64,000 bases of DNA from NCBI RefSeq assembly GCF_014640075.1, contig NZ_BMGG01000010.1, forward strand, positions 124,001 to 188,000, in the 5' to 3' direction. This stretch comes from Chelatococcus reniformis (lineage in GTDB: Bacteria > Pseudomonadota > Alphaproteobacteria > Rhizobiales > Beijerinckiaceae). Shown here piece after piece: positions 42,236 through 57,178 of the stretch. The notes beneath the pieces are model-generated. The model saw only the letters and a list, made by a program, of their open reading frames with translations, did no database searches and had not been told where the DNA came from. Both the position numbers and the translations under genes were made by a program. Within the stretch, counting starts at the first letter, position 1; each line of letters begins with the position of its first letter.

Positions 42236-43399
42236 GTGTCAGATTCGAAAGAGCCACTGCGCATCGGCGCGCTGTATTCCCAGACCGGCCGGACAGCTTT
42301 CGTGGAGCGGACGCAGCTTAATGCAACCCTGCTCGCCATCGAGGAAATCAACGCGGCCGGCGGGATCTGCGGCCGCGAGGTCGTCCCCGTCACCGTCGAC
42401 GCGCAATCCGATCCGCAGCGCTTCAGCCGCATCGCCGAGCATCTGCTCGACGAGGCTGGCGTCGCCATGCTGATCGGCTGCTACATGACCAACACGCGCC
42501 AGGCGGTCGTGCCCGTCGTCGAGCGCCGCGGGGCCGCCCTTGCCTATGCGGCCTGCTATGAGGGCTTCGAGTATTCGCCCAACGTGGTCTACGGCGGCGC
42601 CGTGCCCAACCAGCACATCCTGATGCTGGCGCGCCACCTCATGGCCAACGTGGGCAAGCGCTTCTACCTGGTGGGCACACGCTATACGTTCCCGATCGAA
42701 TCCAATCGCGTGATGATGACCCTGGTCGCCGAGCAGGACGGGCAAACCGTCGCCGAACGCTACGTCAAGCTGGACGCCGAGCGCAGCGAGCTGGCGGCGA
42801 TCGTCGGCGACATCAAGGCGAAGCGGCCGGACGTCGTCTTCTGCACGGTGGTGGGGGAGGCGGCCAGCCTGTTCTACCAGCTCTGCCGGGACGCCGGGGT
42901 CATGTCCGACACCGCCATCGCCAGCCTGACCATCACCGAGGCGGAGATCGCGCTCATGCCGGCCGGTCTGGCCGAGGGCCATTTGACCGCCGCGACCTAC
43001 TTCCAGACCATCGGGACAGCCGCGAACCGTCAGTTCGTCCGGAACTACAAGGCCAAATTCGGAGCGCACGAGCCACTGAATGCGATGGCGGAGACGGCCT
43101 ATGGCCTCACCCACATGGTGCTGGCCGCCGGCGCCCGAGCGGGATCCTTCGCTCCGGCGGCGCTGCGGGCCGCCCTTGGCGACCAGCCCTTCGAGGCGCC
43201 GCAGGGCACCGTGCGGCTCGATGCCGACAACAGCCACTTCTACCTTTGGCCGCGCATCGGGCGGGTGGAGGCCGACGGCCAGTTCGCCATCATCGAGGAG
43301 AGCCCGGTCGCGGTGAAGCCCGACCCCTACCTGATCAACCACACGCTCGCCGACTGCGAGCCGACGATCGCGTTCAACCTGCGGACGGCGCGGAGGTAG
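42236..43399 (+). CDS. amiC: AmiC-like amide-binding regulator
   Basis: A 387-residue protein of the periplasmic-binding fold without a signal peptide, matching AmiC/NegC/UrtA-like sensors: R-I-G-A-L-Y-S-Q-T-G at the start, E-E-I-N-A-A-G-G-I-C-G-R-E-V, and the A-E-x-A-Y-G-x-x-x-M-x-x-A-A segment near 290. In Pseudomonas, AmiC holds AmiR silent until it binds a short amide. The GTG at 42236 follows GGGGAG and the terminator. The amiR gene begins 6 bp after its stop, an arrangement typical of the AmiC-AmiR pair. Confidence 0.85.
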   Translation: MSDSKEPLRIGALYSQTGRTAFVERTQLNATLLAIEEINAAGGICGREVVPVTVDAQSDPQRFSRIAEHLLDEAGVAMLIGCYMTNTRQAVVPVVERRGAALAYAACYEGFEYSPNVVYGGAVPNQHILMLARHLMANVGKRFYLVGTRYTFPIESNRVMMTLVAEQDGQTVAERYVKLDAERSELAAIVGDIKAKRPDVVFCTVVGEAASLFYQLCRDAGVMSDTAIASLTITEAEIALMPAGLAEGHLTAATYFQTIGTAANRQFVRNYKAKFGAHEPLNAMAETAYGLTHMVLAAGARAGSFAPAALRAALGDQPFEAPQGTVRLDADNSHFYLWPRIGRVEADGQFAIIEESPVAVKPDPYLINHTLADCEPTIAFNLRTARR

Positions 43400-43404
43400 G
43401 CCCC

Positions 43405-43995
43405 GTGCTCAAAGCCCTTCGCGATATCCGCAGCCTTCGAGTCCACATCCTGCACCCCAAGGACCGGGAGTGCGACGAGCTTGTCGCCCAGGTGCGCCGC
43501 ATCGGCTGCCGCGTGGAGGCGGTGTGGCCGCCGCAGGACGACATCCCGCCGGAGACCAACATCGCCTTCTTGCTCTTCCGGCAGGATATACTGACCGATT
43601 CCCTATTGAAGGCACTCGCCGACCGGCTGCCGGAGCTGACGCTGATCGGCATCGTCGAGTTCGAGAGCCCGGCGGTGATCGAGGCGGTGGTCCGCGCCGG
43701 CGCCAAGGCGGTCATTACCAAGCCGATCCGGCCATTTGGGCTGTTGACAAGTATGATAATCGCCAATACTCTATCTGAAAGGATTAAATCATCATCAGAT
43801 AGATTAGCTAAGCTGCAAGCCAGGATAAATGGCTTGAAGCGAATCGAGCAGGCCAAGTCGATTCTGATGTCCAGAAAGGGCCTGTCCGAGCAGGATGCCT
43901 ACGACACGCTAAGGGAGCGTGCGATGGCGAAGCGGACGACGATGGAGTCGATCTCGTCCGCCATTATCGAAGCGAACGAGTTCTTCGGTACGTAA
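43405..43995 (+). CDS. amiR: AmiR-like ANTAR transcription antiterminator
   Basis: A 196-residue protein with an N-terminal pseudo-receiver domain (about 10-120), a coiled-coil linker (about 125-150) and a C-terminal ANTAR domain with the pattern A-K-S-I-L-M-x-x-x-G-L-S-E-Q-D-A-Y-x-x-L-R-x-x-A-M. Such proteins bind paired small hairpins in nascent leader RNA and prevent termination. GTG 43405 is eight bases after GGAGG. Bases 43740-43810, encoding the coiled coil, are markedly AT-rich with ATA, TTA, TCA and AGT codons rare elsewhere in the window. The likely targets are the terminators at 42176 and 44251. Confidence 0.88.
   Translation: MLKALRDIRSLRVHILHPKDRECDELVAQVRRIGCRVEAVWPPQDDIPPETNIAFLLFRQDILTDSLLKALADRLPELTLIGIVEFESPAVIEAVVRAGAKAVITKPIRPFGLLTSMIIANTLSERIKSSSDRLAKLQARINGLKRIEQAKSILMSRKGLSEQDAYDTLRERAMAKRTTMESISSAIIEANEFFGT
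43771..43802 (+). repeat. Inverted repeat within amiR
   Basis: CTATCTGA (43771-43778) and TCAGATAG (43795-43802) form a perfect 8-bp inverted repeat with a 16-nt spacer inside the AT-rich, coiled-coil-coding part of amiR. It could be an RNA hairpin or a binding site, or a by-product of the unusual base use. Confidence 0.4.
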
Positions 43996-44241
43996 GCTAG
44001 GTAGCGGCGGCGGTGGCCGGGACGAGCCTGCCATCCATCCATCCGTGCGGGACGGATCATTCGGTCTGACCCGTCGGGAACGCTTCCGATCTGACGCGGC
44101 GATGAAGTTGAGAATGCCATCACCGCAAATAGTAATCCGCCGTATCGTGTTGTCATGCGCGTTGATGTGATCTGAATACGGCTATTCCAAGTTGTACATT
44201 CGACGCGGGCGCGCCAAAGCTGCCGCCACCCGTGTCCCGGA

Positions 44242-44254
44242 GGCTAAGGGAGCC
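44242..44254 (+). promoter_or_regulatory. Candidate antiterminator hairpin, leader 2
   Basis: GGCT-AAGGG-AGCC, a 4-bp stem with the same AAGGG loop as at 42171-42185. The AGCC arm belongs to the 5' arm of the downstream terminator, so the structures are mutually exclusive. ANTAR targets are described as two small hairpins with A1 and G4 in the loop; only one hairpin per leader was found, and its loop is five rather than six bases. Confidence 0.45.
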
Positions 44255-44286
44255 ACCACCAGCTTGATCGCTGGCGGTGGCTTTTT
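44251..44286 (+). terminator. Intrinsic terminator upstream of hyuA
   Basis: GCCACCACCAGC (44252-44263) pairs with GCTGGCGGTGGC (44270-44281) with one mismatch and a 6-nt loop, followed by TTTTT (44282-44286). It is 79 bp upstream of hyuA and would block the operon unless read through. Confidence 0.8.
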
Positions 44287-44365
44287 CGTTTTCGCGACGC
44301 CGTGACCTCAAGGCTCGGCGCAACGGCAGCGGCGCGACCAAAACGCGCCCAAGGAGCAAGTCATC

Positions 44366-46420
44366 ATGTCGACAACCGAAGTATCCAAGGACGCGGTGAG
44401 GGTCGCCTGCGACGTGGGCGGCACGTTCACGGACATCTGCGTGCTCAACGAGCTGACGGGCCGCATGCATGTCGCCAAGGTGCCGACGACGCCCGATCCG
44501 ATCGAGGGCGTGCTCGCCGGCATCGACGCCGGCGGCGTTGCGCTCAAGGACATCGTGCTGTTCTCGCACGGCACGACGCTCGCCACCAACGCGCTCATCA
44601 CCCGCCGCTTCCCGCCGGCGGTGATGATCACCACCAAGGGGTTTCGCGACACCATCGAGATCCGGCGCGGCAATCGCGACGACCTGTGGGACACCTACAA
44701 GGAGATGGCGAAGCCCTACATCCGCCGGCGTGACCGGCTCGTCGTCAGCGAGCGCATCGACTATTCCGGCCGCATGGTGACGCCGCTCGACGAGGCCGAG
44801 GCGGCCGATCTGGCGCGCATCGTCAAGAAGCGCGGCGTCAAGACCGTGGCGATCTGTTTCGCCAACGCCTTCATCAACCCGGAGAACGAGCGGCGGATGC
44901 GGGACATCCTGGCGCGCGAGATCCCCGACGCCACCATTTCGCTGTCCAGCGACATCATGCCGGAGATCTTCGAGCACGAACGCTTCTCCACCACCGTGGC
45001 CAACGCGGTGCTGGCGCCCGTCGTCGGTTCCTACGCGCGCCGGCTGGAAGGGCGCATGAAGGAAGGCGGCTACCACGAAGACGTGCTGCTGCTGCATTCC
45101 GGCGGCGGCGTGATGACGGCCAAGACGGCCGAGCAGTTCGCCGCGCGCCTGTCGGCCTCCGGCATCGCCGCGGGCGCCATCGCCAGCCGCTTCGTGGCCG
45201 AACATGCCGGCTTCAAGAACTCCATCGGCCTCGACATGGGCGGCACGTCCACAGACGTGTCGCTGTGTGACAACGGCAATCTGCGCGTCACCAAGGAATG
45301 GTACGTCGAATACGGCTATCCGATCTGCTTCCCCTCCATCGAGGTGCTCACCATCGGCGCTGGCGGCGGCTCGCTCGCCTGGATCGATGCGGCCAAATCG
45401 CTGCGCAACGGCCCGCAGTCCGCCGGCTCGACTCCCGGTCCCGCCTGCTACGGCCGCGGCGGCAGCAACCCGACCAACTGCGACGCCAACGTTGTGCTTG
45501 GCCGGCTAAGCGACAATCTGGCCGGCGGCAAGGTCTTGCTCGACAAGGCGCTGGCAACCGCGGCGATCACCGGCGGTGTCGCCGACCCGCTCGGCATGTC
45601 GGTCGAGGAGGCGGCGCTGGCGGTGCTCAAGGTGGCCAACGCCAACATGGCTGACGCCGTGCGGCTGCTGTCGATCCGCCGCGGCTACGATCCGCGCGAC
45701 TTCGCGCTCGTGGCCTTCGGGGGCGCCGGGCCGCTGCACGGGGCGGCGCTCGCCAAGGATCTGTCGATCCCGGTGGTGCTGGTGCCGCCCAATCCGGGGG
45801 TGACCTCGGCGCTCGGTTGCCTCTTGGTCGATATCCAGCATGACGTCACGCAGATGTACCTGTCCAAGGTCGAGGACGTCGCCATCGACGACCTCGAGAC
45901 GACGTTCCGGGCCCTGGAGATCGAGGGGCGCGAACGCCTCAAGAACGAGGGCGTCGGCGACGACCGCATGGTGTTCCAGCGCAAGATCGACATGCGCTAC
46001 CTCGGCCAGTGGCGGGCGCTGTCGATCCCGCTTTCGGCGCCGATCACCTCGCTGGACGAGGCTATCGCCAGCTTCCACCACGAGCACGGCCGCGAGCACA
46101 ATTATTCGCGCCCCGGCGCGCCAGTGGAGATCTATCGCGTCAGCGTCATCGCAACCGGCCTCACGCCACAGGCCAGCTTCGCCGAGTTCGATCTCACGGA
46201 CGCCCCGGCCGTCGCTGTGGGCAGCCGTTCCGTCCGTTTCGACGAATTGCCCGAGGCGGTCGAGACGCCGGTCTACGACCGAGGGGCCCTGCAAGCCGGC
46301 ATGAAGGTTGCCGGCCCCGCCGTTATCGACCAGCTCGACTCCACCATCCTGGTGCCGCCGGGCGTCACCGCCGAAGTCGACCGCTCCCTCACTATCGTGA
46401 TGCGCATTCCGCTCGCCTGA
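44366..46420 (+). CDS. hyuA: Hydantoinase/oxoprolinase subunit A (ATP-dependent)
   Basis: A 684-residue HyuA-type subunit. The N-terminal ASKHA ATP-binding elements V-G-G-T-F-T-D-I (about 16-24), H-G-T-T-L-A-T-N-A-L-I-T-R-R and the phosphate-2 D-M-G-G-T-S-T-D-V-S-L are complete. With HyuB it cleaves a cyclic or stabilised amide using ATP, as in N-methylhydantoinase and 5-oxoprolinase, or carboxylates a ketone as in acetone or acetophenone carboxylases. The ATG at 44366 follows AAGGAG. The attenuator-like leader upstream and the amide sensor pair favour the amidohydrolase role. Confidence 0.92.
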   Translation: MSTTEVSKDAVRVACDVGGTFTDICVLNELTGRMHVAKVPTTPDPIEGVLAGIDAGGVALKDIVLFSHGTTLATNALITRRFPPAVMITTKGFRDTIEIRRGNRDDLWDTYKEMAKPYIRRRDRLVVSERIDYSGRMVTPLDEAEAADLARIVKKRGVKTVAICFANAFINPENERRMRDILAREIPDATISLSSDIMPEIFEHERFSTTVANAVLAPVVGSYARRLEGRMKEGGYHEDVLLLHSGGGVMTAKTAEQFAARLSASGIAAGAIASRFVAEHAGFKNSIGLDMGGTSTDVSLCDNGNLRVTKEWYVEYGYPICFPSIEVLTIGAGGGSLAWIDAAKSLRNGPQSAGSTPGPACYGRGGSNPTNCDANVVLGRLSDNLAGGKVLLDKALATAAITGGVADPLGMSVEEAALAVLKVANANMADAVRLLSIRRGYDPRDFALVAFGGAGPLHGAALAKDLSIPVVLVPPNPGVTSALGCLLVDIQHDVTQMYLSKVEDVAIDDLETTFRALEIEGRERLKNEGVGDDRMVFQRKIDMRYLGQWRALSIPLSAPITSLDEAIASFHHEHGREHNYSRPGAPVEIYRVSVIATGLTPQASFAEFDLTDAPAVAVGSRSVRFDELPEAVETPVYDRGALQAGMKVAGPAVIDQLDSTILVPPGVTAEVDRSLTIVMRIPLA

Positions 46421-46451
46421 GATGCTGCTGCACCTGAAGAAAGATCTTGCC

Positions 46452-48464
46452 ATGAGCACGAACGACAAGGGATTGGATCCCGTCACCTTCGAAGTTCTCA
46501 AGAACGCTTACGTCAATATCGTCGACCAGATGGCGGAGCAGATCTTCCGTACCTGCTATTCTTTCGTCATCTATTCCCGCGATTTCTCGTCGGCGCTGTG
46601 CGACGTCAACGGCGACACCATCATGCAGGGCAGCGGCGATATCGCCGCGCATGTCGGGACGTTGCACTACACGGCCAAAGCGGTGATCAACAACTTCAAG
46701 GATGACATCCATCCCGGTGACGTCTTCGTCGTCAACGACGTCTACCAGGGCGGCACTCACTTCAACGATACACGCATCGTGCGCCCGATGTTCTACAAGG
46801 GCGAACTGCTCGGCTTCTCCCAAGCCAACGGCCACTGGGCCGACGTGGGCGGCGCCGTGCCAGGCTCCTTCAACGTCAATGCCATCGACCATATGGCGGA
46901 GGGCCTGCGCATCACGCCGACGCGGGTGTGGAGCAAAGGCCGGTGCCTCGACGACGTCTGCCGGCTGATCGCCTCCAACACGCGGGCACCGGCCGACATC
47001 ATCGGCGACATGCAGGCCCAGGCTGAGGCCACCAGGGTGGCGGAGCAGGAGATCTGCCGCCTGGTCGAGAAGTACGGGCTCGACGTCATCAAGCGCTCCT
47101 TTGGCGCCGTGCAGGACTATGTCGAGGTGCTCACGCGCCAGCGGGTCTCCGAACTGCCCGACGGCGTGTGGCAGACCGAGGACTACATCGACGTCGATCC
47201 GGGTCTCGGCGAGGGCCTGATCCCGATCCGCATCACCATGACCATCAAGGGCGACAGGGTGCATTACGACCTGTCGAAGTCCCATCCCAAGTCGATCTCG
47301 AGCTTCCTCAACGCCTGCTTCGGCGGCGCCTTCGCCGCCATCGTCGCCGGCACCAAGATGCAGTTCCCCGAGATCCCGTTGAACTCGGGCTTCTACCGGG
47401 TCGTCACCGTCGATCTTGGTCCAGAGGGATCGGTGGTCAATGCCGCCTGGCCGACGCCGGTGGCCGGTTTCTGCTCGGGGCCGTTCGAGAAGATCATGAA
47501 CTCGATCTTCGAACTGTGGGCGGAGATCCTGCCGGAGCGGGCGATGGCCTGCACCTTCAACCTGGATTACCTGCTGATCGGTGGACGCGATGGGCGCCAG
47601 CCGGGCCACCAATACTTCATGTGGTACGACTGGATGGTCGGCGGCTGGGGCGCCCGCAACGGCCGCGACGGCTGGGCGGCCACCGGCCCGGTGTTCGGCG
47701 TCCAGCTCGGTACCCAGCCGTTCGAGGGCCAGGAGCGGCTGGCACCGGTGCTGACCACCTGTCACGAGCTGCAGGTCGATTCCGGCGGCCCGGGCGAGTT
47801 CCGCGGCGGCATGGGGGTCGAGAAGGGCGTCATCCTCACCAAGGTGGACCGCACCGTGGTCTCCTACTGCTGCGACCGCGAGCGCTCGATCACCTGGGGG
47901 CTGTGGGGCGGCCTGCCGTCCATTCCGCACGGCGTCTGGGTCAACCGGGACACCCAGGGCGAGCGCTACCTCGGCTCCCTCTTTTCCAACGTGCCGCTCG
48001 AGGCGGGCGACATGGTCTCGCGACCATCCGCCGGCGGCGGCGGCCTCGGTGATCCGCTGGAGCGGGACGAGGAGCTCGTCTGCGAGGACGTGGCCGACGG
48101 CTACGTCTCGATCGAGCGGGCGGCCAAGGACTACGGCGTCGTGGTCAAGGAGATCGATGCGGATCTGGCCGAATACGAGGTCGATCACGAGGCGACGCTC
48201 GCCCGCCGCGCCTACATCCGCAGCAACCGCGCGAAGTGGCTGCAGGAGGATGCGGAAACCGTAGCCGCGCGCTACCGCGCCGGCGAACTCACCATGCACG
48301 ACCTCATCCGCGCCCATGGCGTCATCGTCAACTGGGGCTCGGGCGAACTGCTGCCCAAGACCACCGAACAGTTCCGCGCCATGCTGATGCGCCGCACCGC
48401 GCCCTACTGGGGCAAGAGCGTCGCCAGCGGCAAGGACGCATCCGTCACACTCAAGGTCGCCTGA
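46452..48464 (+). CDS. hyuB: Hydantoinase/oxoprolinase subunit B
   Basis: A 670-residue HyuB-family subunit: the D-P-V-T-F-E-V-L-K-N start, Y-S-R-D-F-S-S-A-L-C-D, H-P-G-D-V-F-V-V-N-D-x-Y-x-G-G-T-H, H-W-A-D-V-G-G-x-x-P-G-S and a C-terminal G-G-G-G-x-G-D-P block. It works with HyuA on the substrate hydrolysis half-reaction. The ATG at 46452, after GAAGAAAG, is the family-type start; an ATG at 46422, 1 bp after the hyuA stop, is an alternative in-frame start. No extra gamma subunit follows, unlike acetone carboxylase. Confidence 0.92.
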   Translation: MSTNDKGLDPVTFEVLKNAYVNIVDQMAEQIFRTCYSFVIYSRDFSSALCDVNGDTIMQGSGDIAAHVGTLHYTAKAVINNFKDDIHPGDVFVVNDVYQGGTHFNDTRIVRPMFYKGELLGFSQANGHWADVGGAVPGSFNVNAIDHMAEGLRITPTRVWSKGRCLDDVCRLIASNTRAPADIIGDMQAQAEATRVAEQEICRLVEKYGLDVIKRSFGAVQDYVEVLTRQRVSELPDGVWQTEDYIDVDPGLGEGLIPIRITMTIKGDRVHYDLSKSHPKSISSFLNACFGGAFAAIVAGTKMQFPEIPLNSGFYRVVTVDLGPEGSVVNAAWPTPVAGFCSGPFEKIMNSIFELWAEILPERAMACTFNLDYLLIGGRDGRQPGHQYFMWYDWMVGGWGARNGRDGWAATGPVFGVQLGTQPFEGQERLAPVLTTCHELQVDSGGPGEFRGGMGVEKGVILTKVDRTVVSYCCDRERSITWGLWGGLPSIPHGVWVNRDTQGERYLGSLFSNVPLEAGDMVSRPSAGGGGLGDPLERDEELVCEDVADGYVSIERAAKDYGVVVKEIDADLAEYEVDHEATLARRAYIRSNRAKWLQEDAETVAARYRAGELTMHDLIRAHGVIVNWGSGELLPKTTEQFRAMLMRRTAPYWGKSVASGKDASVTLKVA

Positions 48465-48575
48465 GACCATGGTCGGCCCGCACCGCGGGCCGTCCGCCAT
48501 CGCGCAGATCCGGCCGCACCGGGCGCCGGAGCGTCATCGCCCGTGCATCAACACAACTGGAAGGTGGACACGATC

Positions 48576-49820
48576 ATGGTCGACATCACCCGTAGGACGC
48601 TCCTCACCCTCGCCGCAGGGGGCGCCGCCGCCAGCGTCGGCCCCTTCTATCTCAGGCGGGCGCAGGCCGCCGACGCCATTCCCATCGCCGGCATCCACGA
48701 TGCCTCGGGCGGCATCGACATCTATGGCCGGCCGATGATCAACTGCCTGCAACTGGCCGTGGAGGAGCTCAATGCGGCCGGCGGCGTGCTCGGCAAGCCA
48801 TTGAACCTGGTCAACTACGACCCCCAGTCGAACATGCAGCTCTACACCCAGTACGCCACCGAGGCGGCGACGAAGCAGAAGGCCGCGGTGGTGTTCGGCG
48901 GTATCCTGTCGGCGTCGCGCGAGGCCATGCGGCCGACGCTGCGGCGCTTCAAGACGCCCTATTTCTACAGCCTGCTGTACGAGGGCGGCGTCTGCGATCG
49001 CAACATCTTCTGCATGGGCTCGACGCCGGCGCAGACCTTGCAGAAGTTCACGCCCTTCGTGATGAAGCGTTTCAACGGCAAGAAGATCTACACCTTGGCC
49101 GCCGACTACAACTACGGCCAGATCACCGCCAAGTGGATCAAGAAGTTCGCCACCGAGAGCGGCGGCGACGTCGTCGCCACCGACTTCTTCCCCCTCGACG
49201 TCAATGATTTTGGGCCGACGATCCGCAAGATCCAGGCGGCGCAGCCCGACATCATCATGTCGGTGCTGGTCGGCGCCAACCACAATGCGTTCTATCGGCA
49301 ATGGGTGGCCGCCGGCATGAAGAACAAGATCCCGATGGCCTCGACGACGTTCGGCATCGGCAACGAGCAGCTCACCACCTCCCCCGAGGAGCAGAACGGC
49401 ATCATCGTCTCCTACGCCTACCTCGACGGCATCCAGACGCCTGAGAACAAGGCGTTTCTGGCGAAATACACCAAGCGCTTCGATGACAAGGCGGACCCCG
49501 TCACCGAGGGCGCGGCGATGACCTATCACGCCGTCAACCTGTGGGCGAAGGCGGCCGAGCTGGCCGGCAGCGTCGACCGCGATAAGGTGATCGAGGCGCT
49601 GGAGACCGGCCTGAGCTTCATCGGCCCGGCGGGCAAGACCACCATCGATCCCGCCACCCACCACGACACGCTCGACGTCTACATCGCCGAAGTGCGGGAC
49701 CGCAAGTTCAACGTGCTCGAGAGCTACTTGCAGCAGCCTCCGGCCGACACTGCCGCGGTCTGCAACCTCAGGGCCCATCCCAACGAGAACAAGCAATTTG
49801 TCATCGACGTGAAGGTGTGA
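48576..49820 (+). CDS. ABC transporter substrate-binding protein, Tat-type signal
   Basis: A 414-residue HAAT-family binding protein. The N terminus T-R-R-T-L-L-T-L-A-A-G-G-A-A-A has a twin-arginine pattern, so export in folded form is likely. The mature part resembles AmiC/UrtA-like amide and urea binders: D-A-S-G-G-I-D-I-Y-G, E-E-L-N-A-A-G-G-V-L-G, Y-F-Y-S-L-L-Y-E-G-G. ATG 48576 is preferred over an ATG at 48543. The permease genes follow after a palindromic repeat pair, which may allow more binding protein than permease to be made. Confidence 0.88.
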   Translation: MVDITRRTLLTLAAGGAAASVGPFYLRRAQAADAIPIAGIHDASGGIDIYGRPMINCLQLAVEELNAAGGVLGKPLNLVNYDPQSNMQLYTQYATEAATKQKAAVVFGGILSASREAMRPTLRRFKTPYFYSLLYEGGVCDRNIFCMGSTPAQTLQKFTPFVMKRFNGKKIYTLAADYNYGQITAKWIKKFATESGGDVVATDFFPLDVNDFGPTIRKIQAAQPDIIMSVLVGANHNAFYRQWVAAGMKNKIPMASTTFGIGNEQLTTSPEEQNGIIVSYAYLDGIQTPENKAFLAKYTKRFDDKADPVTEGAAMTYHAVNLWAKAAELAGSVDRDKVIEALETGLSFIGPAGKTTIDPATHHDTLDVYIAEVRDRKFNVLESYLQQPPADTAAVCNLRAHPNENKQFVIDVKV

Positions 49821-49844: not shown

Positions 49845-49960
49845 CCGTCATGGCCGGGCTTGACCCGGCCATCCATCGAAAAGTAACGGCGTCGTCGTCG
49901 GCCAGACGATCTGAGTTCTTGAGTGGATGGATGGCCGGGTCAAGCCCGGCCATGACGCGG
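49845..49960. repeat. Palindromic repeat pair B
   Basis: Two facing units, 49845-49878 and 49924-49960, each with an ATGGCCGGG...CCCGGCCAT palindrome, separated by about 45 bp. It lies inside the transporter operon between the binding-protein gene and livH, the same position as the REP sequence between malE and malF in E. coli. Confidence 0.85.
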
Positions 49961-49984: not shown

Positions 49985-50851
49985 ATGGATTACATCGTCA
50001 TCATCGTTTTGCAGCTCGCGGTGACTGTCGCCAACCTGGCCCTGATCGCGGCTGGTCTGGCGATTGTCTTCGGCATGATGAGGGTCATCAACTTCGCCCA
50101 TGGCGAGTTCTTGATGCTGGGCGGCTATGCCGCCATCGTCTCGCACCGGGCCGGAGTCAACCTCTGGATCGCCATGTTCGTCGTCGCGCCCCTCGTCGTC
50201 GGCGCCGTCGGAGCCGTTCTGGAGCGGCTGGTGATCCGCCGGCTCTATGGGCGCATGATCGACACCATGCTGGCGACGTGGGGCATCAGCCTGGCGCTGA
50301 TCGGCCTCGTCACCGTGGTCTTCGGCAACACGGTATCGGGCATCTCGCCGCCGCTCGGCAGCCTGGAGGTCGGCCGCTATGCCATCGGCCGCTACGAGCT
50401 GCTGCTGGCGGTCGTCTGCGCAGCTCTCTACGGGGGTGGCTGGTTGCTGTTGCGGCGCACCTCCTTTGGGCTGATCGCCCGCGGCACCATGCAGAACCGC
50501 ACCATGGCTGCGGCTCTCGGAGTCGATCCCGGCCGCGTCTACGCCGTCACCTTCGCCGCCGGCGCCGCCGTCACTGGTCTTGCCGGCGCTTTGATCGCGC
50601 CCATCGCCGGGGTCGTGCCGACGATCGGCGCGGCCTACATCGCCAAGGCCTTCATCACCGTTATCTCCGGCGGCGCCGCCATCATCGCGGGTACGCTGAG
50701 CTCGGCCACCCTGCTCGGCTCGATCAACACCGCCTTCGCCTTCGCCTTCAGCCCGGTGTTGGGCGAGGTCGCCCTGCTGGCCGCGGCCGTCATCCTGCTG
50801 CGGCTGCTGCCGCAGGGAATCACCGGCCGCTTCTTCAGAAAGTCGCTGTGA
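49985..50851 (+). CDS. livH: ABC transporter permease LivH/UrtB type
   Basis: A 288-residue inner-membrane permease with the N-F-A-H-G-E-F-L-M-L-G-G-Y motif (about 36-48), G-T-M-Q-N-R-T-M-A-A-A-L-G-V-D coupling loop and about eight hydrophobic helices. It is closer in style to the UrtB/amide branch than the LivH at 30.3 kb. Its stop codon shares one base with the livM start. Confidence 0.9.
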   Translation: MDYIVIIVLQLAVTVANLALIAAGLAIVFGMMRVINFAHGEFLMLGGYAAIVSHRAGVNLWIAMFVVAPLVVGAVGAVLERLVIRRLYGRMIDTMLATWGISLALIGLVTVVFGNTVSGISPPLGSLEVGRYAIGRYELLLAVVCAALYGGGWLLLRRTSFGLIARGTMQNRTMAAALGVDPGRVYAVTFAAGAAVTGLAGALIAPIAGVVPTIGAAYIAKAFITVISGGAAIIAGTLSSATLLGSINTAFAFAFSPVLGEVALLAAAVILLRLLPQGITGRFFRKSL

Positions 50852-51912
50852 TGCTGAAGTCCTCCCTCGGCGCCGCCGCCGTCGCACTCGCCGCCGTCTA
50901 CGCCCTCGTCGTCGTGCCCGCCGAGGGCCAGATGACCACGATGATCAACGGCTCGGTCTATGCGAGCTACGGCATCCTGGCGCTGTCGCTAGCCTTGATC
51001 TGGGGCTACGGCGGCATCCTCAGCTTCGGCCAGGCCGCTTTCTTCGGCCTCGGCGGCTACGCCTATGCGATCGCCGCCCTCAACCTGGGCAATACCTGGG
51101 CGGCGCTCGTTATCGCCGTAGCGCTGGCCGGCGCCAGCGCCGCGGTGCTCGGCTATTTCATGTTCTGGGGCCGTATCAGCGACGTCTATCTCGGCGTCAT
51201 CACACTCACCGTGTCGCTGATCCTCTACCGCTTCCTCAACCAGACCGCGGGCGATGAGTGGACCATCGGCTCGGCGCCGCTCGGCGGCTTCAACGGCATC
51301 CCGTCGACGCCGATCCTGACGCTGCCCGGCCTGCCCGACGAGCCGCTCTCGCCGGAGCAAATCTACGTGCTGGCCATGGGCGCGCTGTTCGTCGGCTACC
51401 TCGCCTGCAAGCTGCTCGTCGCCACCCATTTCGGCCGGGTCGTCGTGTCGATCCGGGAGAACGAGATGCGCGCCGAGCTGCTGGGCTACGACGCGCGGCT
51501 CTACAAGCTCGGGCTGTTCACCTTCGCCGGAGCGCTGGCCGGCATCGGCGGCGTGCTGTTCGCCAACTGCGTCTTCGTCAGCCCCAACATGTTCAATTTG
51601 CAGACGAACGGCCAGCTGATCATCTGGGTGATCGTCGGCGGCCTCGGCACGCTGGCCGGCCCGGTCATCGGTTGCTTCCTGCTGCTGATGCTGGCGACCT
51701 TCCTCGGCACCGTTCACCAAGGCGGCGGCACCAACTGGTTCGACCCCAACCTGGTGCTCGGCGTGCTGCTGACGCTGGTGGTGGTGGCGCTGCGCAAGGG
51801 TCTGCTGCCGCTCGCCATCGCGGGCTTTGACGCCATCGCGGCGCGCCGTGGCCAACGCGGCCGCCTGGCCCGAGCCGCCGACCCCCTGGTCTGCGAGCCG
51901 CAGGCGGAGTGA
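50851..51912 (+). CDS. livM: ABC transporter permease LivM/UrtC type
   Basis: A 353-residue LivM-family permease: G-Y-G-G-I-L-S-F-G-Q-A-A-F-F-G-L-G-G-Y-A-Y signature (about residues 51-70), I-R-E-N-E-M-R-A-E-L-L-G-Y coupling loop. ATG 50851 is given by the TGATG junction with livH; the longer in-frame reading overlaps livH and is not real. Confidence 0.9.
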   Translation: MLKSSLGAAAVALAAVYALVVVPAEGQMTTMINGSVYASYGILALSLALIWGYGGILSFGQAAFFGLGGYAYAIAALNLGNTWAALVIAVALAGASAAVLGYFMFWGRISDVYLGVITLTVSLILYRFLNQTAGDEWTIGSAPLGGFNGIPSTPILTLPGLPDEPLSPEQIYVLAMGALFVGYLACKLLVATHFGRVVVSIRENEMRAELLGYDARLYKLGLFTFAGALAGIGGVLFANCVFVSPNMFNLQTNGQLIIWVIVGGLGTLAGPVIGCFLLLMLATFLGTVHQGGGTNWFDPNLVLGVLLTLVVVALRKGLLPLAIAGFDAIAARRGQRGRLARAADPLVCEPQAE

Positions 51913-51915: not shown

Positions 51916-52638
51916 ATGACCGAGGCCCTCATCCTCGAAGCCCGCGGACTGACCATGCGCTTTGGCGGGGTCACCGCCGTCGATGGCGTCGATCTCAAGG
52001 TCCGGCCCGGCGAGTTGCGCTGCCTCATCGGCCCCAACGGCGCCGGCAAGAGCACGTTCTTCAAGATGCTCTCCGGCCAGTTGCGGCCGAGCGCCGGCGA
52101 CGTCGTGTTCAAGGGGATCAGCCTCGTCGGCCTGCCCGCCTCGCGCATCGCCCGCCTCGGCATCGGCATCAAGACGCAGGTGCCCAGCGTGTTCAACGGC
52201 CTCACCGTGGCGGCGGGCGTGACGCTCGCCGCGCGTCGGTCGCTGCCGCCGATGCTGGCTCGCGCACGCACCGACGAGACCTTGGCGCGGATCGGCATCG
52301 GGCGGCTGCGCGACCGGCTGGTGGGCGAGCTGGCCCACGGTCAGCGCCAGCTCGTGGAGCTCGCCATGGTGCTGGCGCCGCAGCCCGACCTCGTCCTGCT
52401 CGACGAGCCGGCGGCCGGCATGACCGCCGACGAGGTGAGCCGGCTCGCCGATCTCGTCGTCGAGCTGACGCGGTCGAGCGCCGTCATCATCGTCGAGCAC
52501 GACATGCAGTTCATCCGCCGTATCGCCCGCGACGTCACCGTCTTCAATTGCGGCCGCGTGCTGGCCGAGGGGCCGGCCGGCCAGGTGCTGGCGGACCAAC
52601 GGGTCAAGGACGTCTATCTCGGAAAGGAAGCGGCATGA
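51916..52638 (+). CDS. livG: ABC transporter ATPase LivG/UrtD type
   Basis: A 240-residue ATPase with Walker A GPNGAGKST, L-A-H-G-Q-R-Q as the signature (UrtD-like rather than LSGGQ), Walker B L-V-L-L-D-E-P-A-A-G-M and I-K-T-Q-V-P-S-V-F-N in place of the LivG R-T-F-Q-N. This last feature is typical of the urea/amide transporter branch. Start 3 bp after livM; stop overlaps livF (ATGA). Confidence 0.9.
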   Translation: MTEALILEARGLTMRFGGVTAVDGVDLKVRPGELRCLIGPNGAGKSTFFKMLSGQLRPSAGDVVFKGISLVGLPASRIARLGIGIKTQVPSVFNGLTVAAGVTLAARRSLPPMLARARTDETLARIGIGRLRDRLVGELAHGQRQLVELAMVLAPQPDLVLLDEPAAGMTADEVSRLADLVVELTRSSAVIIVEHDMQFIRRIARDVTVFNCGRVLAEGPAGQVLADQRVKDVYLGKEAA

Positions 52639-53312
52639 GCCTTCTCGCCGCCAGCGGCATCGAAGCGGGCTACGGGCAGATGCGCGTTTTGACCGACGTG
52701 CGCTTCGAGGTGGAGGAGGGCGAGTTCCTCGGCATCCTCGGTCACAACGGCATGGGCAAGAGCACCTTGCTCAAGGCGCTGTGCGGCGAGATCCCACTGA
52801 CCCGGGGCGCCATCGCCTTCGCCGACCGGGATGTCGGCAAGCTGGCCGTGCATGCGCGCGCGCGGGCCGGGATCGGCTATGTGCCCCAAGGCCGGCAGAT
52901 CTTCCCGGCCCTGACCGTGCGCGAGAACATGCTGATGGCGGCGCTCGGCTCAGGTCGACCGGCCACTGTGGCCGATCGCGTCCTCGCCAAGTTCCCGCGG
53001 CTGCAGCCGATCGTCGACCGGGCCGGCGGCGTCCTCTCGGGCGGCGAGCAGCAGATCCTGGCGCTGGCGCGCTGCCTGTGCGGCGAGCCCAAGCTGCTGC
53101 TGCTCGACGAGCCGACCGAGGGCGTGCAGCCGTCTATCCGCGACGAGATCAGCGACACCCTGCTCAGGCTGCGCCGTGACTTCGGCCTGACGCTGCTGCT
53201 CGTCGAGCAGAACATCCAATTCATGCAGAGCCTGGCCGACCGCGTGCTGCACATGGAGAAGGGCCGCGTCTCGGCCGGGCACGACGAGGCGGCCGGGGCC
53301 CTGGCCTTCTAA
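52635..53312 (+). CDS. livF: ABC transporter ATPase LivF/UrtE type
   Basis: A 225-residue ATPase with G-H-N-G-M-G-K-S-T (the Asn-Gly-Met-Gly variant of Walker A common in UrtE), V-P-Q-G-R-Q-I-F-P-A-L-T-V-R-E-N, L-S-G-G-E-Q-Q and L-L-L-D-E-P-T-E-G-V-Q-P-S-I, the latter typical of UrtE. The urt-like character of both ATPases supports urea- or amide-like solutes. dmmD follows after 35 bp. Confidence 0.9.
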   Translation: MSLLAASGIEAGYGQMRVLTDVRFEVEEGEFLGILGHNGMGKSTLLKALCGEIPLTRGAIAFADRDVGKLAVHARARAGIGYVPQGRQIFPALTVRENMLMAALGSGRPATVADRVLAKFPRLQPIVDRAGGVLSGGEQQILALARCLCGEPKLLLLDEPTEGVQPSIRDEISDTLLRLRRDFGLTLLLVEQNIQFMQSLADRVLHMEKGRVSAGHDEAAGALAF

Positions 53313-53347: not shown

Positions 53348-54490
53348 ATGTCGATGGGCGTGATGTCGTGGCGGCGGTCGCCCCTGGCCGAGAGGCACCG
53401 GGCACTGGGGTCCAATCTGGAGGATTGGAACGGCATGGAGACGGCCTGGACCTACGCGGGCCGCAGCGTCGCCGACGAGCATGAGGCGATCCGCACCAAG
53501 GCGGCGGTGATGGACGTCTCGGGGCTGCGCAAGGTCCACCTGGTCGGGCCCCATTCGCACCACATCCTGCAGCGGGCGACGACCCGGGACGTGCGCAAGG
53601 TCTATCCGGGCAAGTCGGTCTATGCCTCGATGCTGAATGAAGCGGGCAAGTTCATCGACGACTGCATCATCTATCGCACCGGCCCCAACACCTGGATGGT
53701 GGTGGTCGGCTCCGGCACCGGCTACGAGGCGCTGACCTGCGATCTTGCCGGCAAGAACGCGGCGCTCCTGTTCGACGACGACCTCCAGGACCTGTCGCTG
53801 CAGGGGCCGCTCGCGGTGGACTACCTGGCCCGCCATGTGCCGGGCATCCGCGAGCTCAAATACTTCCATCACATGCAGACTACCCTGTTCGGCAAGCATG
53901 TGATGATCTCGCGCACCGGCTACACCGGCGAACGGGGTTACGAGATCTTCTGCCGAGCCGAGGATGCGACCGAGATCTGGGACCAGATTGTCGCCGAGGG
54001 CGAGGGCATGGGCATCATTCCGGCCTCGTTCACGGCGCTCGACTGGGTCCGCGTGGAAAGCTATCTGCTATTCTTCCCCTACGACAATTCGCAGATGTAT
54101 CCCTTCGCGGACGAGCCGCCGGGCGACACCCTGTGGGAGCTCGGCCTCGACTTCACCGTCTCGCCCGGCAAGACCGGTTTTCGCGGCGCCGAGGAGCACT
54201 ATCGGCTGAAGGGCCGCGAGCGCTTCAAGATCTTCGGCGTGCTCGCCGATACGGACGCAGTTCTGACGGCGGGCGACGCGCTGTTCCAGGGCGACAAGCG
54301 GGTCGGCGTGGTTACTTGCGGCATGTATTCTCGGCTGACCCGGCGCTCGATGGCCATCGCCCGCATGGATGTGGCGGTGGCCCGCGAGGGGGTGGCGTTC
54401 GAGGTGCGCGGCGCGGAGGTCGCCTGCCGCGCTATCGCCCATCCCATCACCTTCGACGATCCCAAGAAGACCAAGCGTACGGCCGCTTGA
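53348..54490 (+). CDS. dmmD: GcvT-like aminomethyltransferase, DmmD-like
   Basis: A 380-residue folate-binding protein of the GcvT family (compare DmdA, LigM, sarcosine oxidase alpha C-terminal part). It has the G-x-V-x-x-x-H-x-G-R-x-x-x-D start region W-T-Y-A-G-R-S-V-A-D-E-H-E-A-I-R-T, the folate pocket Y-T-G-E-R-G-Y-E-I-F and the C-terminal barrel. In the dimethylamine monooxygenase loci of marine and methylotrophic bacteria, as I recall, dmmD is a GcvT-like gene in the order dmmDABC, exactly the order here. It probably passes the methyl-derived one-carbon unit to tetrahydrofolate. Start preceded by GAGGAGGAAG. Confidence 0.8.
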   Translation: MSMGVMSWRRSPLAERHRALGSNLEDWNGMETAWTYAGRSVADEHEAIRTKAAVMDVSGLRKVHLVGPHSHHILQRATTRDVRKVYPGKSVYASMLNEAGKFIDDCIIYRTGPNTWMVVVGSGTGYEALTCDLAGKNAALLFDDDLQDLSLQGPLAVDYLARHVPGIRELKYFHHMQTTLFGKHVMISRTGYTGERGYEIFCRAEDATEIWDQIVAEGEGMGIIPASFTALDWVRVESYLLFFPYDNSQMYPFADEPPGDTLWELGLDFTVSPGKTGFRGAEEHYRLKGRERFKIFGVLADTDAVLTAGDALFQGDKRVGVVTCGMYSRLTRRSMAIARMDVAVAREGVAFEVRGAEVACRAIAHPITFDDPKKTKRTAA

Positions 54491-54503: not shown

Positions 54504-55103
54504 ATGCCTGAAACGAGCATCAAAAGCCGGCCCGTGTACGGCACGCTGGCGCCGCAGCCGGGTACCCGGCATATCCTCCTGGCCGATGGCGACGGGGCCG
54601 CGGCGATCGTCGACTTGGCCCGGGCGGCGCCGCCGGAGTTTTTCGAGCGTGCTCACATCATCACTGCGCCGGCAGCCGGCGCAATGGCGGTGCGAGCGCC
54701 ATTGCGCGCCCTCGCACCGGCCGTCCTCGACGAAACGGACCGACTGGCTGCTGCCCTGTCGCGTCTGGCCGAGGTGCTTGCTGGTGCGGGCATGGGCACA
54801 CGCCTCTATGTAGCCGGGACAGAGGGAACGATCGGCCAGGCCATGCAGGTCGCCCTGGACGCGGGCGTCGAGCTCGGCGCCATCGCCACCGAGCACCGCG
54901 GCTCCAGGGCGCGGCGGGTGCAGTGCGCGCACTGCAAGACCTTCATCGATGAGGTGACCACGCAGCCGGTGGCCTGTTCCGGCTGCGGCCTGATGCTCTT
55001 CGTGCGCGACCACTATTCGCGTCGCCTGGCGGCGTTTCAGGGCGTCTGCGTCGACGCGGAGGAGCCGGGCAGCGCCCCTACCCCCGAGGAGGTGTTCACG
55101 TGA
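54504..55103 (+). CDS. dmmA: Dimethylamine monooxygenase subunit DmmA-like
   Basis: A 199-residue protein with no strong catalytic motif in its N-terminal 120 residues and a C-terminal zinc-ribbon-like element, C-A-H-C near 146-149 and C-S-G-C about 20 residues later, followed by Y-S-R-R-L-A-A-F-Q-G, as in DmmA-family proteins. It is thought to help assemble or modulate the monooxygenase. Overlap GTGA (55100-55103) with dmmB shows coupling. The long in-frame extension into dmmD is not used. Confidence 0.72.
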   Translation: MPETSIKSRPVYGTLAPQPGTRHILLADGDGAAAIVDLARAAPPEFFERAHIITAPAAGAMAVRAPLRALAPAVLDETDRLAAALSRLAEVLAGAGMGTRLYVAGTEGTIGQAMQVALDAGVELGAIATEHRGSRARRVQCAHCKTFIDEVTTQPVACSGCGLMLFVRDHYSRRLAAFQGVCVDAEEPGSAPTPEEVFT

Positions 55104-56059
55104 GCGCCCCGTCGATCGCCGTGCGGGTGAGCGAGGTCGCCGCGGTGACCCCCCTGGTCAAGCGCTTTCGCCTGGAGCCGGAGAGCGGGGGCCGGTTGCC
55201 GGCTTTCTCCGGCGGCGCCCACATCGCCGTCGAGATGCAGGACGGCGCGCACCGTCGACGCAACGCCTTTTCGCTGATGGGGTCGCCGTCCGACACCACG
55301 GGCTACGTCATCGGCGTGCGGCGCCATGACAACGGTCGCGGCGGCTCGCGCTACATGCACGAGCGCGTGACGCCGGGGACGATGCTTCGCATCGCCCATC
55401 CGGCCAATCTGTTCCCCATCGACGGGCGCGCCCGCAAGCACCTGCTGCTGGCCGGCGGCATCGGCATCACGCCGCTGGTGGCCATGGCGGAGCAGTTCGC
55501 CCGGGACGGGCAGCCGTTTGAGCTGCACTACGCCGCGAGATCGCCGGAGCATGCCGCCTTCGCCGACGAACTCCTGGAGCGCTTCGGCCCCGCCGTGCAC
55601 ACCCACTTCTCGGCGCAGGGGCGTCGGCTCGCCTGCGCCTCGCTCCTGGCCGAGCAGCCGCTCGGCACGCACCTCTACGTATGCGGGCCCGAGACGTTGA
55701 TGGACGAGGCCTTCGCGTCGGCCCGGGCACTCGGCTGGCCCGAGCAGAGCCTGCACCGCGAGCGCTTCGCCGCGCCGGCGCGCGGGCTGCCCTTCGCGGT
55801 CCGGCTCGCGCGCTCGGGCCGGCGCGTCGACGTCGGCGCGGATCAGTCGATGCTGGAAGCCCTGGAGGCCGCCGGCGCGCCAGTGGCCTCGCTGTGTCGC
55901 GGCGGCGCCTGCGGCCAATGCGAGACGCGGGTGCTCGCATGCGACGGCACGCTGCTGCACGCCGATCACTACCTCAGCGCGGCCGAGCGGGGGGCAGGCG
56001 GCAAGGTCATGCCGTGCGTCTCACGCTTCGCCGGCCGCTCTCTCACCCTCGACCTCTAG
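55100..56059 (+). CDS. dmmB: PDR/VanB-type reductase, DmmB-like
   Basis: A 319-residue phthalate-dioxygenase-reductase-type flavoprotein: FMN domain with R-R-N-A-F-S-L-M-G (RxYS-like), NAD domain with L-L-A-G-G-I-G-I-T-P-L (about 115-126), and C-terminal plant-type 2Fe-2S cluster with C-R-G-G-A-C-G-Q-C and a fourth Cys about 30 residues on. It delivers electrons from NAD(P)H to the oxygenase component. The order FMN-NAD-2Fe2S is that of VanB. Confidence 0.88.
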   Translation: MSAPSIAVRVSEVAAVTPLVKRFRLEPESGGRLPAFSGGAHIAVEMQDGAHRRRNAFSLMGSPSDTTGYVIGVRRHDNGRGGSRYMHERVTPGTMLRIAHPANLFPIDGRARKHLLLAGGIGITPLVAMAEQFARDGQPFELHYAARSPEHAAFADELLERFGPAVHTHFSAQGRRLACASLLAEQPLGTHLYVCGPETLMDEAFASARALGWPEQSLHRERFAAPARGLPFAVRLARSGRRVDVGADQSMLEALEAAGAPVASLCRGGACGQCETRVLACDGTLLHADHYLSAAERGAGGKVMPCVSRFAGRSLTLDL

Positions 56060-56075
56060 CTCCATGAACCCAGAC

Positions 56076-56117
56076 CGCTTCTTCTGCGATTGGGTGGATC
56101 CACCCAATCGCGAAGCG
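56076..56117 (+). repeat. Long palindrome between dmmB and dmmC
   Basis: A perfect 26-bp palindrome (56086-56111, half-site GCGATTGGGTGGA centred on GGATCC) is extended by CGCTTC (56076-56081) and GAAGCG (56112-56117), leaving a 4-nt TTCT bulge on one side. The sequence starts 17 bp after the dmmB stop and ends 20 bp before dmmC. No T-tract follows, so it is unlikely to be a simple terminator. Confidence 0.85.
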
Positions 56118-56137
56118 CTCTAAGCCCGAGAGCCGCG

Positions 56138-57178
56138 ATGACCATCACGTTCCGCCGGGAGACGTTCCGCGACGACTACAACTTTAGCAACAGTGCGGTG
56201 GGCATCCGCCGTTTTCCCTTCCCGTTCGATCGCGACCACTACATGTACGCGGTCAACATCGAGCCGCATGTGAAGGGGCACCCCGGCACCATCTACGAGA
56301 GCCTCATCGACGTCGACGAACACTATGTGGCGGAGATGCAGGACCGGGCGCTGGTCCTCGCCGAGGATCCACTGCGCTCGCAGTCCCTGCCGCATATGGA
56401 GCTGGCCGGCTGGGACCTGCTGGAGCTGCTGATGGAGCAGCTGGCGGCCGGCTATCCCGCGCATTTCGAGCTGCGCCGCAGCGGCAAGCGCTGGCGCTGG
56501 GTCAATCGGCCGCTCGGCATCGACGACACCTTCGTTTTCGGCGCGGCGTCGACGCTGCCGTATGGCCCGATGGAATACATCACGCGCCAGGCGCAGGGGG
56601 ATTTCTGCATCCTCGACCAGCGCGACGGCAATCTGTGGATGGACGCGGGCATGGTGACCACGCAGGCCGACTGGTCGCTCGATTTCGACCTCGGCATGAA
56701 CTTCATGGAGTGGCATGCGCCGGTGCCGCGGGCCCACGAGATGGGCGTGTTCGACCGAGCGCTGAAGTTCATGCTGAACCTGGGGCAAGGCCAGCCCATG
56801 CGCCGCTTCAACTGGACCATGACGGTCAACCCGCGGCTCGACACCAGCCCCGAGACCTACCCCAAATGGGGGCCCGACCGCCGCTCGGTCACGGCCGACA
56901 ACGTCGGCGACAAGGTGCACCTGCGCGTCGAGCTTCAGAGCTTCTGGCGGCTGCCGCGCTCCAACGCCATCGTCTTTCCGATCCGCTGCTACCTGATCAA
57001 GCTCGAGGAACTCGTCACCGTGCCCAAATGGGCGCGCCGCATGCATCGGGTGCTGCGCGACCTGCCGCCGGACCTGGTGGACTACAAAGGCCTGACCCGC
57101 TGGCGGCCGATTGCCGTCGACTACCTCGCTGCCTTCGACGACGGGGCCGCGACCTCGCCCGGCATCTGGCCGGATTGA
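56138..57178 (+). CDS. dmmC: Heme-dependent oxidative N-demethylase subunit (DUF3445), DmmC-like
   Basis: A 346-residue protein of the DUF3445/heme-dependent oxidative N-demethylase family, whose members bind a heme and split N-methyl groups from secondary amines with O2 and NAD(P)H. Conserved segments here are the N-terminal F-P-F-x-F-D (residues 25-30), H-P-E-x-like A-D-D region replaced by D-E-H-Y-V-A-E, E-Y-I-T-R-Q-A-Q-G-D-F and W-S-L-D-F-D-L-G-M-x-F-x-x-W-H-A-P-V-P, and the C-terminal R-L-P-R-S-x-A-I-V-F-P-I-R-C-Y. It completes dmmDABC. Start ATG 56138; a longer frame from 56090 overlaps the palindrome. Confidence 0.82.
   Translation: MTITFRRETFRDDYNFSNSAVGIRRFPFPFDRDHYMYAVNIEPHVKGHPGTIYESLIDVDEHYVAEMQDRALVLAEDPLRSQSLPHMELAGWDLLELLMEQLAAGYPAHFELRRSGKRWRWVNRPLGIDDTFVFGAASTLPYGPMEYITRQAQGDFCILDQRDGNLWMDAGMVTTQADWSLDFDLGMNFMEWHAPVPRAHEMGVFDRALKFMLNLGQGQPMRRFNWTMTVNPRLDTSPETYPKWGPDRRSVTADNVGDKVHLRVELQSFWRLPRSNAIVFPIRCYLIKLEELVTVPKWARRMHRVLRDLPPDLVDYKGLTRWRPIAVDYLAAFDDGAATSPGIWPD

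Follow-up and report, generated by a model that had tools for sequence, protein, structure and literature searches.

Solvents, drugs, pesticides and marine nitrogen make dimethylamine and simple methylated amides widespread, and to our knowledge few enzymes convert stable tertiary amides to amines that can be used. A stretch of 64,000 nucleotides from Chelatococcus reniformis (contig NZ_BMGG01000010.1, positions 124,001 to 188,000 of the forward strand; the window) raises the question of whether a single operon could make this connection. Between 42236 and 57178 its plus strand carries 13 genes, assigned by profile searches in the order amiC, amiR, hyuA, hyuB, a binding-protein gene, urtBCDE-like genes, dmmD, dmmA, dmmB and dmmC, and a preliminary description of the locus had proposed that they sense, import, hydrolyse and demethylate an N-methylated amide, hydantoin or urea. 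On balance, we lean towards a catabolic operon under AmiC/AmiR control whose substrate is a small methylated amide, which would be converted to dimethylamine and then to methylamine. A more specific version is put forward tentatively, as possible rather than probable: HyuAB hydrolyses an N,N-dimethyl amide or urea that is acyclic and unactivated, freeing dimethylamine, and Dmm is induced by the amide via AmiC/AmiR, not by dimethylamine.

Gene content and organization

The operon occupies C10:166236-181178 of a host genome of 39 contigs and 6.8 Mb. The gene set, shared orientation and short intergenic gaps that had been described for it agree with the open reading frame (ORF) positions and the profile matches. 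The longest gaps are one of 370 bp separating amiR from hyuA, which holds a regulatory leader, and one of approximately 165 bp between the binding-protein gene and urtB, which holds a dispersed palindromic repeat. From hyuA to dmmC, a terminator scan returned no plus-strand site between genes, and its four matches there are intragenic; the missing intergenic terminators are weak evidence, because the same scan also overlooked the terminator in the leader. The operon is real and recurrent in parts, and it is probably devoted to one pathway.

Linkage of hyuAB and dmm in other genomes

A scan of a genome collection returned 222 HyuB relatives, of which the best 80 loci (L numbers below), chosen by HyuB alone, were kept. 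Six of these have dmm genes beside hyuAB: L020 (Acidisphaera), L025 (Methylobacterium R2-1), L026 and L027 (Burkholderiales/Betaproteobacteria assemblies), L039 and L043 (Paracoccus versutus). The dmm genes can be upstream of hyuAB (as in L026 and L027), downstream or divergent (as in L043), so the pairing recurs in varied gene orders. The DmmC family, PF11927, was searched for in 47 genomes, leaving out L021, L051, L053, L054, L064 and 28 further of the 80 loci. Of the 31 genomes whose HyuB is at least 67% identical, 22 had a match of at least 214 bits, compared with 0 of the 16 whose HyuB is at 65% or below; the comparison is confounded by kinship because the latter are mostly actinobacteria and firmicutes. 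DmmA/DmmB-type neighbours were seen in 20 of the 22 genomes with PF11927, which is all 20 that were looked at.

In these 22 genomes with both genes, six pairs are located within 15 kb of each other compared with 0.13 expected by random placement (P ~6e-9, or 3e-7 when the near-identical L026 and L027 are counted once), with the 15 kb limit and the list of near loci set by hand after viewing the loci. The link between hyuAB and dmm is not chance. This conclusion rests on the adjacency test; in a Fisher comparison of 22/31 with 9/385, the genome that holds the window is itself part of the background, and kinship is again a confounder. For nine dmm loci from the 385-genome class sample, no HyuA or HyuB was present in the stretch fetched (up to 10 kb on each side), and the link is therefore no general habit of dmm. 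The nine come from 40 of 54 PF11927 matches that were fetched, some on short contigs; those left unfetched were the window's own and others below 137 bits. In a plasmid collection, HyuB had matches in 36 records and DmmC in 148.

An unrooted tree of DmmC places the hyuAB-linked copies in several positions and not in a single clade. The P. versutus copy (L178) is nested among copies that are not hyuAB linked (support 97 and 95), and L177 is sister to a second, unlinked copy of the same Methylobacterium genome (99); L020 sits outside the L177 pair plus L110 (100), and L026, L027 and L039 are placed elsewhere. A different methylated-amine enzyme accompanies HyuAB in L049 (Rhodobacteraceae QY30). 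Here a protein of 740 residues related to trimethylamine dehydrogenase (1djn, 1111 bits) is encoded 6 kb from hyuAB. Its gene and those for a GcvT protein, at 38% to the window DmmD, and an APC permease lie at 14735-20286, 3-8 kb from hyuB and on the strand opposite to AmiCR-HyuAB-NCS1; the APC permease is of the type that accompanies dmm elsewhere. In L144 (Paracoccus aminovorans), a 67% relative of the L049 dehydrogenase is located approximately 11.7 kb upstream of hyuA, clipped at the edge of the stretch. The presence of unrelated methylated-amine enzymes beside the same HyuAB suggests that a methylated amine is the product. In the Methylopila loci L022-L024, AmiCR-HyuAB and a transporter occur with no dmm within 10 kb, and the genomes of L022 and L023 have dmm elsewhere, adjoining an APC permease.

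The neighbours of hyuAB in the sister groups (Aminobacter, uncultured alphaproteobacterial, Paracoccus, Methylobacterium, Aureimonas and Sulfitobacter) were also considered as a guide to function and set aside, as they are mixed and point to no single pathway; they include NCS1 permeases, DRL/SAF oxidoreductases, diiron monooxygenases, LuxR regulators, 5-oxoprolinase parts and other ABC transporters. Phenol_Hydrox-type (diiron) monooxygenase subunits lie near hyuAB in the uncultured alphaproteobacterial assemblies L031, L032 and L064 (by Pfam in L031, by membership of the same clusters in the others). Oxidoreductases of one cluster, DRL/SAF by Pfam in L034, lie near hyuAB in unrelated genomes (L029 5628-7004, L034 13472-14974 and L040 6522-7865).

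HyuAB and its candidate substrates

The hyuA gene (44366..46420, plus strand; PF05378, PF01968, PF19278) is predicted to encode the ATP-binding subunit of an ATP-dependent amide or lactam hydrolase, and hyuB (46452..48464, plus strand, in an ORF that opens at 46422, the alternative start; PF02538, 486 bits) the subunit with the metal site. The ATP motifs listed in the accessible part of the CapAB paper (PMC8453981) are retained in HyuA as CDVGGTFTD, DMGGTSTD and GSTPGP. The metal ligands of HyuB are intact, with CapB D41, H99, D102 and H124 aligned to D44, H103, D106 and H128. HyuA matches CapA at 513 bits and HyuB matches CapB at 343 bits, both below the NCBIfam equivalog cut-off of 1000 bits; compared with CapB, several HyuB pocket positions are aromatic and bulkier, and the vicinal disulfide is missing. 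Among PDB chains, HyuA scores 466 bits against the N-methylhydantoinase 7hk5, 315 against acetophenone carboxylase gamma and 216 against acetone carboxylase beta, and both HyuA and HyuB are weaker against these carboxylases than against CapAB and 7hk5. Profile searches of the operon genes returned no further carboxylase subunit. The intact ligands and the lack of an extra subunit bear out the earlier assignment of HyuAB to the ATP-dependent hydrolase type, as far as sequence can indicate.

In a tree of 95 HyuB proteins, the window copy groups with L020, L022-L027 and L039; its neighbours are Aminobacter and uncultured alphaproteobacterial sequences (one titled MarineAlpha10), followed by a Paracoccus/Labrys group. 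The 35 HyuB proteins of the window's subfamily have the pocket residues Ala66, Phe345 and Gln418 in common, whereas 48 outgroup proteins have Val (47), Tyr or His (47) and Gly (47) at the same columns; L064 was counted in both sets and is probably the single outgroup exception. Two outgroup HyuAB loci, both at 62%, are near genes for γ-aminobutyrate (GABA) metabolism: gabT and an aldehyde dehydrogenase gene in Rhodococcus (L143), and genes for a succinate-semialdehyde dehydrogenase and an aminotransferase in Halomonas (L146). These neighbours are as expected if the outgroup substrates were 2-pyrrolidone-like lactams. Given these pocket differences from the outgroup with its GABA-linked loci, the 35 members of the window's subfamily probably have a substrate in common that is not the outgroup's. 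The candidates for HyuAB may be an N,N-dimethyl amide or urea, or an N-methyl lactam or hydantoin.

The host genome has four more HyuA-type genes within approximately 45 kb at C1:8685-52790, including two sets with HyuB at 57% and 62%; no dmm adjoins these paralogues within the 60 kb read.

Dmm enzymes and the probable fate of methylamine

The last four genes of the operon, all on the plus strand, have the order dmmD-dmmA-dmmB-dmmC, with a DmmC of PF11927 and a DmmA family domain. The order equals that of Ruegeria pomeroyi, and the names follow Lidbury et al., 2017 (PMC5520151, in its available sections). DmmD (53348..54490; PF01571 GCV_T and PF08669 GCV_T_C) is GcvT-like and presumably catalyses folate-dependent one-carbon transfer; DmmA (54504..55103) has PF22290 and PF22289 and matches NF041259 at 114 bits (cut-off, 60), and DmmB (55100..56059; PF00175, PF00111) is a predicted ferredoxin-type reductase. 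DmmC (56090..57178, with a likely start at 56138 as in 5lte; PF11927, 242 bits) is the predicted alpha subunit of a haem-dependent oxidative N-demethylase and aligns with the 5lte enzyme of that type over nearly its entire length (476 bits). The identities first given to DmmABC and DmmD are thus upheld by the domains, the DmmA family score and the 5lte match. DmmC is the single PF11927 match in the host genome.

The window DmmC is 64-76% identical to 22 of 23 copies that are not hyuAB linked, many of which adjoin gmaS/mgs; the remaining copy, L175, is at 50%. Its branch has weak support (48). The copy on R. etli p42e is 76% identical, and the neighbours of dmmDABC there are sarcosine-oxidase-type, glutamate-synthase-type, glnT, purU and folD genes; in HyuB-bearing genomes and R. 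etli, other dmm copies are often accompanied by gmaS, mgs, folD, sarcosine-oxidase-like genes or an APC permease gene. In P. aminophilus, mutation of any of the dmm genes prevented growth on dimethylamine, according to the accessible part of the published account (PMC4543880). On the 8,967-base contig of L175, from the genome of L050, named Patulibacter, distant dmmABC genes lie beside UrtB/UrtD/UrtE-like and AmiC/substrate-binding-protein-like genes; this pairing of dmm and an amide transporter has no hyuAB on the same contig.

The host also has the genes to process methylamine. At C10:38001-58000, approximately 115-125 kb from the operon on the same contig, are purU, gmaS (673 bits, above cut-off), mgsABC and soxB/soxA-like genes, which together cover the N-methylglutamate pathway of gmaS, mgsABC and sarcosine-oxidase-like mgd genes. 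The mgd identity is presumptive: the soxA-like gene scores 868.5 bits, below the soxA family cut-off of 1164, as expected for a relative. Searches of the host genome gave no match above cut-off to trimethylamine N-oxide (TMAO) demethylase and no close trimethylamine dehydrogenase (trimethylamine monooxygenase was not searched for), and no APC permease was detected in a search that had no positive control; dimethylamine from HyuAB, or imported otherwise, is therefore the likely source for Dmm. Because Dmm is most like the canonical dimethylamine monooxygenase and a methylamine pathway is encoded on the same contig, dimethylamine is the most likely amine to be released.

Probable control by AmiC and AmiR

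The operon opens with amiC (42236..43399, plus strand; PF13433, 401 bits), a putative ligand sensor and presumed negative regulator of AmiR whose closest PDB chain is AmiC 1pea (286 bits), and amiR (43402..43995, plus strand), a predicted antiterminator with the PF21332 AmiR_N and PF03861 ANTAR domains. At position 106, which we take to line the amide pocket, the window AmiC has Ala, whereas 1pea has Thr and chain 1qnl has Asn; Ala106 is present in 22 of 23 HyuAB-linked AmiC proteins, the exception being L052 with Thr.

The gap between amiR and hyuA contains an AmiR-type leader RNA (44194..44294, plus strand) with a hairpin P1, a short hairpin P2 (GGCU...AGCC) and an intrinsic terminator that overlaps P2, its 5' arm reusing the 3' arm of P2. 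P2 and the terminator are mutually exclusive and therefore consistent with ANTAR antitermination by AmiR, as would be expected for the known AmiR family. The element is also present in L020, L022, L023, L024 and L025 and in two copies in L039, and covariation in an alignment of these eight related sequences was judged against 500 shuffles. In P1 and P2, nine cells changed on both sides compared with 3.0 in the shuffles, and in the terminator seven did compared with 1.9; none of the 500 shuffles reached nine or seven, respectively. The covariation sits in P1 and the terminator, and three of four P2 pairs are invariant. Two of the five shuffle measures gave no strong support for the structures; the count of further pair types was unremarkable, being reached in 30/500 shuffles for P1/P2 and 500/500 for the terminator. 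The covariation is supportive and carries no probability, because the aligned sequences share kinship.

In the host genome, the window site is the top match to a covariance model of the leader (77.8 bits), followed by its own reverse strand (28.1) and the next candidate (22.7), with 150 of 8,821 candidates scored; Rfam gave no match at the gathering threshold. The model also matched upstream of hyuA in five Aminobacter loci outside the training set (L034, L035, L036, L038 and L044; E 0.0002 to 0.007) and weakly immediately before amiC in L022 and L024. The reverse strands of the training leaders reach 28 bits, equal to the Aminobacter matches, and these scores and those of L022 and L024 therefore convey little beyond a terminator at the expected place. 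A strong terminator-like hairpin with a T run was returned by the terminator scan ahead of the window amiC, at 42176-42213. That hairpin and the matches before amiC in L022 and L024 could reflect autoregulation by AmiR. All the elements of AmiC/AmiR antitermination (sensor, AmiR_N with ANTAR, and a competing terminator before the controlled gene) are thus predicted at the locus, and the conserved leader before hyuA fits the control that had been proposed.

Transporter and intervening repeat

The importer genes, all on the plus strand, encode a UrtA/amide-type ABC substrate-binding protein (48543..49820, alternative start 48576; PF13458/PF13433), urtB-like (49985..50851; TIGR03622, 253 bits against a cut-off of 374) and urtC-like (50899..51912; TIGR03727, 249 against 576) permeases and urtD-like (51916..52638; TIGR03411, 246 against 304) and urtE-like (52620..53312; TIGR03410, 250 against 286) ATPases. 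A true urea transporter was rejected because all five parts fall below the NCBIfam equivalog cut-offs for urea UrtABCDE. The binding protein is nearest to PDB chains 8tg1 and 7s6e. In an alignment read by eye, it has Ile and Leu at the columns of AmiC positions 83 and 106, in place of the Trp and Ile of the UrtA chain 7s6e, which argues for, but does not prove, a less polar ligand.

The repeat between the binding-protein gene and urtB (49847..49956, no strand assigned) belongs to a palindromic pattern with seven matches in the window at up to three mismatches, where none is expected. Copies at 11491-11583, 49847-49956 and 60216-60339 are units of ~93-124 bp with the same 22-base arm at their ends in opposite orientation.

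Proposed pathway and alternatives

In the pathway that we favour, AmiC would sense the amide and free AmiR, a step suggested by the leader and the gene order, and AmiR would act on the leader before hyuA to block termination, so that hyuAB, the transporter and dmmDABC would be induced together. The ABC transporter would take up the amide, and HyuAB, judging from its family and residues, would spend ATP to activate the amide oxygen and then cleave the bond by hydrolysis. The freed methylated secondary amine, most likely dimethylamine, would be oxidised by DmmABC to methylamine and formaldehyde; DmmD would hand the formaldehyde to folate, and the methylamine would enter the N-methylglutamate pathway. 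The preliminary description is largely right in its gene assignments and in control by AmiC/AmiR, whereas an N-methylated, cyclic or hydantoin substrate for HyuAB is more conjectural. It is refined in the identity of the released amine: dimethylamine is the most likely one, ahead of an N-methylamino acid.

Several observations weigh against this pathway and feed two alternatives, both of which we regard as unlikely and to a similar degree. HyuAB could instead open an N-methylated lactam or hydantoin, such as N-methylpyrrolidone or N-methylhydantoin, with DmmABC demethylating the resulting N-methylamino acid. The known substrates of the HyuAB family are cyclic (the available text of PMC8453981, and chain 7hk5 by its name), the Rhodococcus and Halomonas outgroup copies keep GABA-type company, and related hyuAB genes adjoin an NCS1/cytosine-permease-like transporter, a hint that the substrate is compact and perhaps cyclic. 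An isochorismatase-type amidohydrolase beside hyuAB in L029 and an amidase in L026 and L027 would fit a ureide-like product. In the accessible part of a study of Aminobacter MD1, dimethylurea as carbon source failed to support growth of the strain; growth on metformin was lost after insertion into a hydantoinase gene, and the authors judged the gene unlikely to encode the metformin hydrolase (PMC9699525). Set against a cyclic substrate are the closeness of the window Dmm to dimethylamine-type enzymes, the three HyuB pocket columns unlike those of the outgroup, and a scan of 20 proteins encoded between 34.6 and 61.7 kb, which include no amino-acid oxidase such as that of nmpC, no GABA transaminase, no semialdehyde dehydrogenase such as that of nmpF and no N-carbamoyl hydrolase. 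A creatinine/N-methylhydantoin route was rejected because the same 20 proteins, to which that search was confined within the genome, include no amidohydrolase.

Alternatively, HyuAB and Dmm might serve unrelated compounds and be brought together in a nitrogen-scavenging island or under a common regulator. In 74 of the 80 HyuB loci no dmmABC was seen adjoining hyuAB, many of these loci ending at contig ends, and PF11927 had no match in nine of the 31 close-HyuB genomes (L028-L033, L037, L040 and L048), including all six uncultured alphaproteobacterial sister-group genomes tested (L028-L033; completeness of the assemblies unknown). Elsewhere, dmm accompanies its own permease and N-methylglutamate genes. 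This explanation sits poorly with the fact that the adjacency recurs in varied gene orders and involves DmmC proteins scattered over the tree, and that one locus has a different methylamine oxidase. A carboxylase role for HyuAB, on the model of acetone or acetophenone carboxylase, to both of which it is homologous, is very improbable and was rejected on the strength of the matches and the lack of further subunits.

Neighbouring genes

Directly downstream of dmmC, at 57323-60134 and, on the minus strand, 60477-61658, are genes for a FadD4-like acyl-CoA ligase, another binding protein of the branched-chain type and an acyl-CoA dehydrogenase, which are probably a separate unit. Upstream of the operon are a fused CofGH (37211-39850; F420 precursor synthase, above the equivalog cut-off) and a protein of the F420-dependent LLM-class oxidoreductase family (34588-36282).

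Significance and comparison with known systems

The preliminary description knew of no pathway with this combination, and that statement holds within the open-licence literature searched, where neither hyuAB with dmm nor trimethylamine dehydrogenase with hydantoinase was found and where, among the papers listed by broader searches, none described the combination in the text examined. The individual parts are known; the wiring is new relative to that literature. If the proposal is correct, the operon would be a new entry point to methylotrophy that connects dimethylamine oxidation with an amide sensor and a hydrolase that spends ATP; it would give an unassigned HyuAB subfamily a function and extend AmiR-type antitermination to methylotrophic genes. 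With an N,N-dimethyl substrate, this would be an amide-induced entry into dimethylamine methylotrophy, previously undescribed.

Each part of the operon has a known counterpart. The P. aeruginosa AmiC/AmiR operon controls the amidase AmiE. It shares with the window the sensor, the ANTAR antiterminator and a leader with a terminator, but the window pair precedes HyuAB, a transporter and dmm, and Ala replaces Thr at position 106. The caprolactamase CapAB of Pseudomonas jessenii and related ATP-dependent lactamases have the same two-subunit ATP/metal architecture and conserved metal ligands; window HyuAB differs in falling below both equivalog cut-offs, in its bulkier aromatic pocket positions and in lacking the vicinal disulfide. 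The dmmDABC genes of Ruegeria pomeroyi, Paracoccus aminophilus and Methylocella silvestris belong to the same four gene families, in the window with the R. pomeroyi order, but the known clusters have an APC permease and gmaS/mgs genes, whereas the window has an amide-type sensor, HyuAB and an importer upstream. In N-methylpyrrolidone catabolism by nmpABCDEF of Alicycliphilus BQ1 and Paracoccus, as described in the available parts of two reports (PMC6987047, PMC12866759), a HyuAB-type enzyme likewise performs the first step, on an N-methyl lactam, and the product amine is then oxidised; there the later steps use the amino-acid oxidase NmpC and the succinate-semialdehyde dehydrogenase NmpF, and in the window their place is taken by Dmm.

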